Source: Branchiostoma floridae (taxonomy: Eukaryota > Chordata > Leptocardii > Amphioxiformes > Branchiostomatidae). From it: a DNA stretch of 64,000 bases. Made by a program: the position numbers and the translations under genes. The stretch spans positions 18,239,831-18,303,830 of the forward strand of contig NC_049980.1 in NCBI RefSeq assembly GCF_000003815.2, written 5' to 3'. Positions 19,401-21,456 of the stretch are shown here, piece by piece. How positions within the stretch are numbered: the first letter of the stretch is position 1; every line of letters begins with the position of its first letter. The notes beneath the pieces were generated by a model that saw nothing but the letters and a program-made list of their open reading frames with translations, was not told the DNA's origin and did no database searches.

Positions 19401-21202
19401 AGAATGTTCTCATAGGAAACATTTATAATTTCAAAATTACTGAAAGGGTGTATTGCTCAATGTTTGTTGTTTGTCCACAGCATGGAGAGCAGTAACGTGG
19501 AGGTTCTCCACCACACCAAGCCAGACAAGTACCAGCTGCACCTGCACGAAAGCTGTGTCTTGTCACTCAAGTTCGCATACTGCGGTGAGACCCTTTGTCC
19601 TACATACACATGCAAATATGTCTGGAAGCCATGCAAGAAAGAACTAGTTGTATAGAAATTAGAAAAAAAGATAACAACAAGGAGCAGGATCTGCTGTGAG
19701 CACTTGTTTGACAGCATTGTGTTCTATGAATCATATGTACATGTACCTGGTATTCATTAAAGAGAAACAGATTTATCAAGTAATTGCCTAAAAGTTCAGG
19801 CAGATGACCTGTCAGCAGGCTTAGTGCTGATTATGCCTGCATTACTCTGTCTCCTTGCACACATTTGCATTGCCCGGGACATTAGTTTGCAGGGGCATTA
19901 AAATTTATTACCCCTGGCCATTGCCTGATCATGTAGCTATAAAGGATAATGAGGTCCCCAGACAGTTGCCCCCATGCACTATTCATGACACTTAATTTGG
20001 ATGTGTGTTCATCTATACAGGCAAATGGTTTGTTAGTACTGGGAAGGACAACCTGCTGAATGCCTGGAGGACTCCTTATGGCGCCAGTATATTCCAGGTG
20101 AGACCTCGCACGCAATAGAGGGTGCAGTTTTGCCGCCTTACATGCAGGGCATTTCTGGCACTCCGGGGGGATACAGCATGGCATGCATATCGCATGAAAG
20201 AAGTAGTTTTGCTGCCAATTGTTGGGGGACGGAGTGGATAATTCAATATTTATGTATGACGTTAATGTTGCCTTTTATGCCCATCTGTCGTATTTTACGG
20301 GCCCCAAGACATTCTGTCAGATTGATTACAGAGCACAAACAATAACCTCGGATCTGTGAGGTAGTCGCATACTTAAACAGGAATTTGCTAATTTAGTAGG
20401 ATATTAGGGTGTCAGCACTTGCAGGCTGGTCAATACTAGAATAGAGTATTGAGTATCAAGAGGTGGGGTTCAACATGCACTACTGTGGTGTAGATCATCA
20501 AAAGGCAGCTGGAGAGCCCCCATCAGAGTTCTGGCACGAAAAACTGGTAATTGTTGTGTAATTGGCTTGAGGGTGCAAGTCCCAATGCTGCCAAACAGCC
20601 AACCACCAGAGTTGCGCAGGCAACAATGTACTATGTACCTGTCACCTGTGGGAATCAGCATGATGGTGGTATTAGCATGTTGTCATGGCAACAAATCTCC
20701 CAAAATGCTGGATGCATGCATTTTTTTTGCCATCCCATTGATGTTGACCCGGGGAGACTGATTCTTACCGCAGCAAACCCTAGAGACTGGCATGTCTGCG
20801 TGCGCCAGAAGCGCACTGATTGGATCGTCTGCCTGGGGACCATCCCCAAAGGTGGCACATGATCTCGTACCATCAAAAATAATTGGATTCTGTCAGTCAG
20901 TGTGAGACGGGGTCGCTAAAACTCAGCGCCTGTTTTACGCTGGGGACAACAAATATGGTTCTCAAAATGAGTTTGCATTGACAAGCCAGTCATCAAGATT
21001 TGCTCTTTGTGACAGTTGGGTCGCAGTAGTGTTATCAGTCTCCTAATGCTTTCTGTGTCTGACGTGTTGTTTGTTCTTGTCCTTTCTCCCCCAGTCCAAA
21101 GAATCATCCTCGGTTCTGTGCTGCGACATATCGGCAGATGACAAGTACATTGTGACGGGTTCAGGCGACAGGAAAGCTACCCTTTACGAAGTCATCTACT
21201 GA
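3847..21202 (+). CDS. TLE: Groucho/TLE family transcriptional co-repressor (5' partial, 16 exons)
   Basis: Nuclear co-repressor without DNA binding of its own; it is recruited by Hes-type (WRPW), eh1-motif and TCF/LEF factors and oligomerises through its N-terminal Q domain. Exons: 3847-3909, 4383-4457, 5780-5951, 6356-6372, 11914-12045, 12305-12505, 12633-12747, 14592-14758, 15613-15692, 15795-15975, 17258-17574, 17747-17858, 19117-19199, 19481-19584, 20021-20097, 21095-21202. All have AG/GT borders and phases agree across every junction, giving 667 codons before the stop. Domain order is Q (end), GP, CcN, SP, WD40. Vertebrate TLE proteins are about 770 aa, so roughly 100 N-terminal residues lie upstream. 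The WD40 half is almost identical to vertebrate TLE, while GP and SP are diverged, as usual for the family. The paralogue number (TLE1-4) is not meaningful for a single invertebrate gene. Confidence 0.97.
4458..5779 (+). other. TLE: TLE intron
   Basis: No gene was recognised. There is a short (tgatg)n run near 5690-5706 and a pyrimidine-rich tract ending in acag near 5330, which could mimic an acceptor, but the following frame does not match any TLE sequence. The true downstream acceptor (ctgtaacag) precedes 5780. Confidence 0.6.
5780..5951 (+). CDS. TLE: TLE GP-domain exon
   Basis: The exon encodes 57 residues beginning [16 protein letters not shown] and ending [13 protein letters not shown], followed by one base of a split Arg codon. 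The Gly/Pro-rich composition is that of the GP domain, which in the family contacts histone deacetylase and aids nuclear import. The upstream NAIIG plus QQQLQAQ junction matches the vertebrate proteins directly, so no extra exon is needed between them. Confidence 0.95.
6356..6372 (+). CDS. TLE: TLE 17-nt micro-exon
   Basis: Exon 5780-5951 leaves one base (c) over, while exon 11914 onward reads in frame only from phase 0, so 3n+2 bases are missing. The piece between gcag (6352-6355) and gtgagt (6373) is 17 nt and restores the frame, giving R-E-P-S-R-Q before NSLSPSD. Vertebrate TLEs have a similar basic/acidic stretch (REP or RERD, then NS-L/V) at this point. The support is frame logic plus family resemblance; a transcript would settle it. 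Confidence 0.8.
6373..11913 (+). other. TLE: Large TLE intron (5.5 kb), regulatory candidates only
   Basis: This is the longest intron of the gene within the window. I recognise no coding exon, RNA gene or transposon ORF. Many frames stay open between about 9180 and 11510, but none resembles a known protein. AT-rich stretches with homeodomain-type TAAT cores occur around 6900-7200. Long introns of developmental regulators often hold enhancers, so this is a candidate region, but the sequence alone does not prove any element. Confidence 0.45.
11914..12505 (+). CDS. TLE: TLE CcN-domain exons (NLS, CK2/cdc2 sites)
   Basis: Exon 11914-12045 encodes 44 residues ending [11 protein letters not shown], a basic nuclear-localisation stretch, with a poly-Ser run from AGC repeats at 12001-12015. 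Exon 12305-12505 encodes 67 residues starting [19 protein letters not shown], the highly conserved CcN core with acidic CK2-type serines, followed by SPR proline-directed sites (SPRENGLDK). Phosphorylation of this region regulates nuclear association in the family. Confidence 0.96.
12633..15692 (+). CDS. TLE: TLE SP-domain exons
   Basis: Exons 12633-12747, 14592-14758 and 15613-15692. The first is Ser/Thr/Pro-rich (STPV...PSPTPSG type); the second begins [12 protein letters not shown] and ends YGRNPM; the third reads [17 protein letters not shown] and ends IPGGKP. The SP domain is the low-complexity regulatory linker before the WD40 propeller. The junctions [14 protein letters not shown] and GGKP/AYSFHV match vertebrate TLE precisely. 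The intron 12748-14591 separating the first two exons shows no further gene. Confidence 0.95.
15795..21202 (+). CDS. TLE: TLE WD40 propeller exons
   Basis: Exons 15795-15975, 17258-17574, 17747-17858, 19117-19199, 19481-19584, 20021-20097 and 21095-21202 encode the seven-bladed WD40 propeller, from [18 protein letters not shown] to the C-terminal KATLYEVIY. Typical WD-blade endings are visible (VKVWD, LSIWD, IAVWD, VRSWD). The propeller pore binds WRPW and eh1 peptides of recruiting repressors. This last exon encodes 35 residues and the stop at 21200-21202, and it has an alternative twin just downstream. Confidence 0.97.
15976..17257 (+). other. TLE: TLE intron
   Basis: No additional exon or repeat was recognised. 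AT-rich 16060-16340 and a run of ordinary intronic sequence lead to the acceptor ccttcag at 17251-17257. Confidence 0.55.
17859..19116 (+). other. TLE: TLE intron with a long but unrecognised open frame
   Basis: A 158-codon frame (18026-18502, +) is open here and a 98-codon frame overlaps it on the other strand. Neither shows a known domain, a signal peptide or a splice-supported context inside a conserved WD40 gene. By chance about one frame of this length is expected in 64 kb of both strands, so I do not call a gene. Confidence 0.5.
20098..21094 (+). other. TLE: Last TLE intron
   Basis: The intron runs from gtgaga at 20098 to the pyrimidine-rich acceptor ctcccccag at 21086-21094. No gene or repeat was recognised inside it. 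Confidence 0.55.
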
Positions 21203-21348
21203 AGGGCCCCACTGTGAAATGACAGAAAGTAGTGACACAGAGGTATAACACAGAGGTTCAGGCAGGGTGTGTGGTCTGAAAGTGAGATCCCTCCCATCCA
21301 GTTCTTCTACTTTCTTTCCTTTCTCTTCCTATCTTTTCTTAACTGCAG

Positions 21349-21456
21349 TCCAGAGAAAGGGCTTGCATTCTATGCTGCCACCTGTCCAAAGACGACAAGT
21401 TCATTGTCACTGGGTTGGGCAACAAGAAGGCCACAATATACGAGGTCATTTACTGA
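21349..21456 (+). CDS. TLE: Alternative, duplicated terminal coding exon of TLE
   Basis: After a long polypyrimidine tract (about 21300-21342) and the acceptor aactgcag, a frame in the same phase as the normal last exon encodes 35 residues and a tga stop at 21454-21456: it starts [10 protein letters not shown], contains FIVTG and ends [10 protein letters not shown]. The normal exon (21095-21202) also encodes exactly 35 residues, and 22 of 35 are identical between the two. Half of the identical residues use different synonymous codons, so protein sequence has been conserved while silent sites drifted. Using this acceptor instead of 21095 would replace the final WD40 strand set. No AATAAA lies between the two exons, so transcripts using the first exon would carry the second as 3' UTR. 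Confidence 0.85.

Follow-up and report, generated by a model that had tools for sequence, protein, structure and literature searches.

Does the last coding exon of the amphioxus Groucho/TLE gene exist in two versions, and does the second encode a usable end of the protein? Such an exon pair was originally predicted in a 64,000-nucleotide stretch of the Branchiostoma floridae genome (hereafter the window; C2:18239831–18303830 of a 513-Mb, 431-contig genome). Judged by its encoded protein, the gene is a Groucho/TLE co-repressor with a C-terminal WD40 propeller orthologous to that of TLE1. The predicted identity was borne out, since the best solved relative of both exons is human TLE1 (PDB 1gxr). 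The protein is very close to P0103, to P0104 (B. lanceolatum) and to P0105 (a B. floridae x belcheri hybrid record); P0103 aligns to 1gxr over residues 209–539 with E 5.5e-222, and most WD40 exons in the window match P0105 at 93–100%, ignoring over-run ends. Parts of the N-terminal Q-rich domain, for which a PF03920 match is precomputed in P0105, lie at 3844–3909 and 4380–4457. The gene is read rightwards; it begins at 3844 or earlier and extends through the second terminal exon. AG/GT edges flank seven exons: 14592–14758, 15795–15975, 17258–17574, 17747–17858, 19117–19199, 19481–19584 and 20021–20097. The last of these (+ strand) is the final shared coding exon; its 25 encoded residues match P0105, and the donor after 20097 (CAG/gtgaga) can be joined in phase to either terminal exon.

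The terminal exons, A (21095–21202) and B (21349–21456), both on the + strand, each consist of 105 coding bases plus a stop. As predicted, they are two 35-codon exons with AG acceptors, equal phase and their own stops, starting 254 nt apart. Both start with TCC directly after the AG and stop with TGA, and 146 nt separate the stop of A from the first base of B. The counts of the prediction were also reproduced: 22 of 35 residues are identical, and for 11 of these 22 the two exons use different, synonymous codons. Nucleotide identity is 76/108. Being adjacent, homologous, equal in phase and similar in length, A and B have the properties by which tandemly duplicated exons are recognised. Exon A shares 31/35 residues with human TLE1 and exon B 22/35; against residues 303–337 of the 1gxr chain the matches reach 1e-15 for A and 1.3e-9 for B. 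The protein end encoded by exon A is identical in P0103, P0104 and P0105. By these comparisons A is the canonical end and B a diverged copy.

A tblastn search of the window with the A peptide found A itself (2e-19) and B (2e-13), the next match having E 0.85, so that no convincing third copy was seen in the window; nor did seven other Groucho exon peptides find a second convincing place there. In a DNA search of the genome the 362-bp A–B block occurred in one place, and the only other match was a 53-nt piece of it on another contig (C15:10703999–10704051, minus strand; L002 1501–1553). This piece is a 98% copy of window positions 21181–21233, spanning the tail of exon A and 31 nt past its stop. 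Nothing else in the surrounding 3 kb is meaningfully similar to the window, and the copy is compatible with an mRNA or a genomic origin. Separately, the protein models P0003 (Acipenser sinensis) and P0004 (Plutella xylostella) carry a repeat of the penultimate WD40 exon, and P0004 repeats another stretch as well; these are probably gene-model errors, duplicated exons being the alternative reading.

To place the exon in the propeller, an AlphaFold2 model of P0103 was built from 16 sequences. Mean pLDDT was 65.8 overall, 72 at residues 501–510 and 93–94 at residues 511–539. The terminal exon corresponds to P0103 residues 505–539, comprising the end of the preceding strand followed by strands at 511–516, 522–527 and 531–538. 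These are strands a, b and c among the four that form the last blade, in keeping with the place in the propeller that had been claimed for the exon. TLE1 numbering was obtained as the 1gxr chain index, counted by hand, plus 433, which fits Tyr532, Phe661, Leu702 and Leu743 as named in excerpts of PMC3419727. The prediction that Leu743 is the eighth residue of this exon proved correct, for both A and B. According to earlier work quoted in the same excerpts, L743F in TLE1 abolishes WRPW binding and hardly affects binding of the eh1-type motif FxIxxIL. Since this substitution separates the two ligand types, small changes in the last blade can split partner classes.

Relative to A, exon B changes the loop before Leu743 from ESSS to ERAC, including Ser to Cys at position 741 (R1-2), and replaces Asp760 with Asn in the b–c turn. 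The other changed residues are 737, 742, 746, 747, 749, 753, 758, 761 and 765. Differences between A and B were found at 5 of 7 positions in top-face loops and at 8 of 28 elsewhere (Fisher P 0.075), a concentration that is suggestive only. Family tails were collected from 269 of 342 proteins, P0002 being excluded and the others lacking a complete, matching 35-residue tail. Of the 13 B residues by which it departs from A, 8 are absent from all 68 distinct family tails, which were matches chosen by likeness to the queries and sample animals unevenly. Exon B keeps 17 of the 23 positions that are invariant in the 16-sequence alignment and replaces 6, one of which is Ser758, found in 68/68 family tails. 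Such changes at invariant positions could reflect decay or a poorly folding blade.

A search of the protein database with the end of B returned 0 B-type tails in 100 matches, 99 being A-type by script and P0101 A-type by eye. A second search gave none either (112 A-type and 8 untypable, with no comparable tail, among 120 matches listed of 1494), and neither did a search of proteins of 41–131 residues (63 A-type and 57 without a tail among 120 matches listed of 426). The tails of P0103, P0104 and P0105 are all A-type; P0106 lacks this part of the protein. Thus there is no B-type tail among the listed database relatives of Groucho, vertebrates being covered as far as they were listed. No transcript or protein with B thus came to light, but the power of these searches was close to nil: database entries are clustered at 90% identity, and the 41–131-residue search gave no exact Branchiostoma A tail either. 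Among the open-access titles and abstract openings listed by literature searches, there was no earlier description of a duplicated Groucho terminal exon, and word finds in PMC5575474 and PMC9741552 yielded nothing.

One residue bears on the age of the duplication. Residue 26 is Lys in B and in 67 of the 68 family tails, and Arg in A; the Arg is common to B. lanceolatum and the hybrid record P0105. On this evidence the duplication probably predates both the Lys-to-Arg change and the species split, unless B reverted to Lys by one transition. If it does predate the split, B should occur in other Branchiostoma.

The nucleotide comparison likewise indicates an old event. In register, A and B agree at 73/105 coding positions and 3/3 stop positions. 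Of the 101 bases that precede the exon 33 agree (33/101), and just before the AG the figure is 12/39; after the stop it is 6/40 and 21/100. Local alignment of the exons scored 42 (shuffle mean 8.4), that of the upstream flanks 12 (shuffle mean 10.2, with 20% of shuffles as good), and that of the downstream flanks 9 (shuffle mean 10.4). Neighboring similarity has been erased, so the duplication must be old, and the remaining likeness coincides with the coding unit. Over 108 nt, exon B has kept its length and acquired no in-frame stop, and 17 of the 32 A/B differences fall at third codon positions. The dN/dS comparison that had been proposed was carried out by the Nei–Gojobori method: with 23.7 silent and 81.3 replacement sites and 16 differences of each kind, dS was 1.74 and dN 0.23.

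These values were set against neutral simulations. When one exon was evolved neutrally to 32 differences, at least 22 identical residues were retained in 3–19 of 5000 runs (six settings). In a second null, A changed silently only and B freely, conditioned on 30–34 differences. The observed pattern was then matched in 25/1458 and 18/1512 runs at kappa 1, 62/1431 and 45/1524 at kappa 2, and 86/1516 and 104/1579 at kappa 4; with an open frame also required, the counts were 11/1458, 9/1512, 34/1431, 24/1524, 50/1516 and 73/1579. A joint null with A silent-only and B neutral counted runs with 16 or more silent and 16 or fewer replacement differences, limits that the observed pair itself, at 15.8 silent and 16.2 replacement differences by the averaging of this null, falls just outside; the maximum was 24/1500 (13/1500 with an open frame), and 17 of 27 settings gave 0. 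A constrained A with a neutral B is thus disfavored but not crushed. The original prediction took the silent differences to mean that selection on the protein had kept B. Its direction stands; its strength does not, as chance matches the pattern in about 0.06% to 6.6% of runs, depending on the null. A stronger argument for constraint than these tests of silent differences is the abrupt loss of similarity where the exon begins and ends.

The most serious rival explanation is that B is a decaying relic, no longer spliced, which survives only as 3' UTR sequence of messages spliced to A. In its favor are the change of 13 of 35 residues, 6 of them at invariant positions, the lack of B-type sequence among the matches listed, and a laxer neutral null that comes as high as 104/1579. 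Against it, the flanks have no detectable similarity while the exon keeps 73/105 identity in register as well as its stop and acceptor AG. The open frame, moreover, was lost in 47–70% of neutral runs. We consider a relic unlikely; the reading frame of B has probably been kept by selection, and B as a translated alternative end is quite likely.

How might B be reached? Neither AATAAA nor ATTAAA, the two signals searched for, occurs in 20098–21683. Candidate shared polyadenylation signals lie on the + strand at 21684–22271 (by pattern count, AATAAA at 21684 and 22266, ATTAAA at 21798). There is thus no such signal between the proximal and the distal exon to give them separate 3' ends. With none ahead of 21684, messages spliced to A and to B would have their 3' end in common, and two acceptors would be the alternatives. 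The original description of A and B as possibly mutually exclusive exons therefore gives way to alternative acceptors nested within a single terminal exon. A message spliced to A would carry B within its 3' UTR, where the stop of A makes it non-coding. Acceptor choice appears to be the most economical mechanism for using either end.

The surrounding sequence hints at regulated splicing. The intron before A (20098–21094, + strand) holds seven GCATG motifs, at 20176, 20181, 20192, 20658, 20675, 20714 and 20790, against 0.90 expected from mononucleotide shuffles (the window rate is 1.39 per kb); seven are reached in 8 of 1260 sliding windows, all over this intron, an excess found post hoc for one of ten motifs examined and hence a lead. 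The acceptor of B follows a pyrimidine tract (21288–21346, + strand), one of two on the + strand of the window with at least 45 nt and at least 88% pyrimidine, and TCTT occurs 5 times in 21203–21348 (0.93 expected). CU tracts and GCAUG sites bind PTB and RBFOX. The pyrimidine fraction at −28 to −4 is 0.88 for A and 0.84 for B; the tract of A being equally pyrimidine-rich near its AG, greater strength alone does not set the B site apart. No yTnAy branch point was found 13–80 nt before the acceptor of B. The longest strong inverted repeat pairs 21216–21232 with 21307–21323 (88% complementary) and would cover the pyrimidine tract of B. Competing RNA structure was rejected as the selector, the folds being no more stable than shuffles: 193 of 200 shuffles (z +1.45) and 83 of 100 (z +0.84) folded at least as well as the native sequence. 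Rfam gave 0 matches in 19800–22500.

The acceptor of B could instead serve regulation, with the A message spliced to it from a donor-like site after the stop of A. Three donor-like matches lie between the exons, at 21267, 21269 and 21282; use of the last (AAA/GTGAGA), for example, would place a junction 79 nt past the stop of A and could expose the message to nonsense-mediated decay. These donors are consensus matches only, and such splicing leaves unexplained why B has a Groucho-like reading frame with silent differences, which makes it very improbable. An assembly artefact, in which two haplotypes or a misjoin lie side by side, is scarcely credible even in a window that holds a 94.5% identical 6.2-kb repeat with 100-N gaps between its copies, because A and B differ at 32/105 bases, far more than that repeat, and have unrelated flanks, no N run lies near 21 kb, and the A–B block had one place in the genome search.

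Other repeats were seen in the window. The ~6.2-kb direct repeat lies at 38388–44510 and 57732–63884, and a 1.2-kb direct repeat (92.9% identity) at 37195–38389 and 54772–55990; they would represent a recent tandem duplication or an uncollapsed haplotype. Kinesin motor exons (PF00225, minus strand) lie near or in them at 36304–36879 and 37742–38212. A 251-codon open frame in the repeat copies (43666–44421 and 63046–63801), without a Pfam match, is presumably mitochondrial ribosomal protein L39-like. A tandem array with ~190 bp copy spacing (49602–51910 and 53434–54670) is adjoined by three 100-N gaps (51911–52010, 53333–53432 and 54672–54771).

The A/B pair can be compared with known systems. 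The human TLE1 WD40 domain (1gxr, 2ce8, 2ce9, 5mwj) shares the gene identity, the propeller and Leu743 at the pore, and its end matches exon A; a second, diverged last exon is seen only in amphioxus among the listed relatives. As far as the source excerpts describe them, FGFR IIIb/IIIc, SNAP25 exon 5 and Dscam resemble A/B in that neighboring homologous exons, alike in length and phase, encode two versions of one structural element. Unlike these, A and B are terminal, with their own stops and nested acceptors, do not require a separating donor, and are known here from genomic DNA. Classic mutually exclusive exons are internal (PMC3228551, in excerpt), whereas A and B both end in stops. In the terminal exon clusters of Drosophila pip and PGRP-LC, according to excerpts of PMC9013439, duplicated 3'-terminal exons are chosen singly, as proposed for A/B; there, however, the choice is described as relying on competing RNA structures, and the folding of A/B is no more stable than that of shuffles.

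The explanation that we favor, and regard as likely, is that the last coding exon of Groucho/TLE was duplicated in tandem long ago in amphioxus. Splicing from the donor that follows 20097 would reach either the proximal acceptor (A) or the distal one 254 nt downstream (B), in messages with a single 3' end, B being 3' UTR in the A message. The products would be two full-length co-repressors differing at 13 residues, in strands a–c of the last propeller blade, next to the pore in which WRPW and eh1 peptides are bound. B would be used in some tissue or stage, under regulation through the CU tract and the GCAUG sites, and the top-face binding surface would be altered. That B changes partner choice is possible, though we would not expect it. 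More speculative still is the idea of two acceptor-switched Groucho proteins with ligand-selective faces, in which the ESSS to ERAC and Asp760 to Asn changes of B bias which partners, WRPW, eh1 or others, are bound; vertebrates would then owe a comparable diversity to the duplication of whole genes, of which they have several for TLE. The duplicated terminal exon is real and probably functional, in a gene where it was unexpected. A second version kept by selection within one gene would let splicing switch the face with which a general co-repressor binds peptides.
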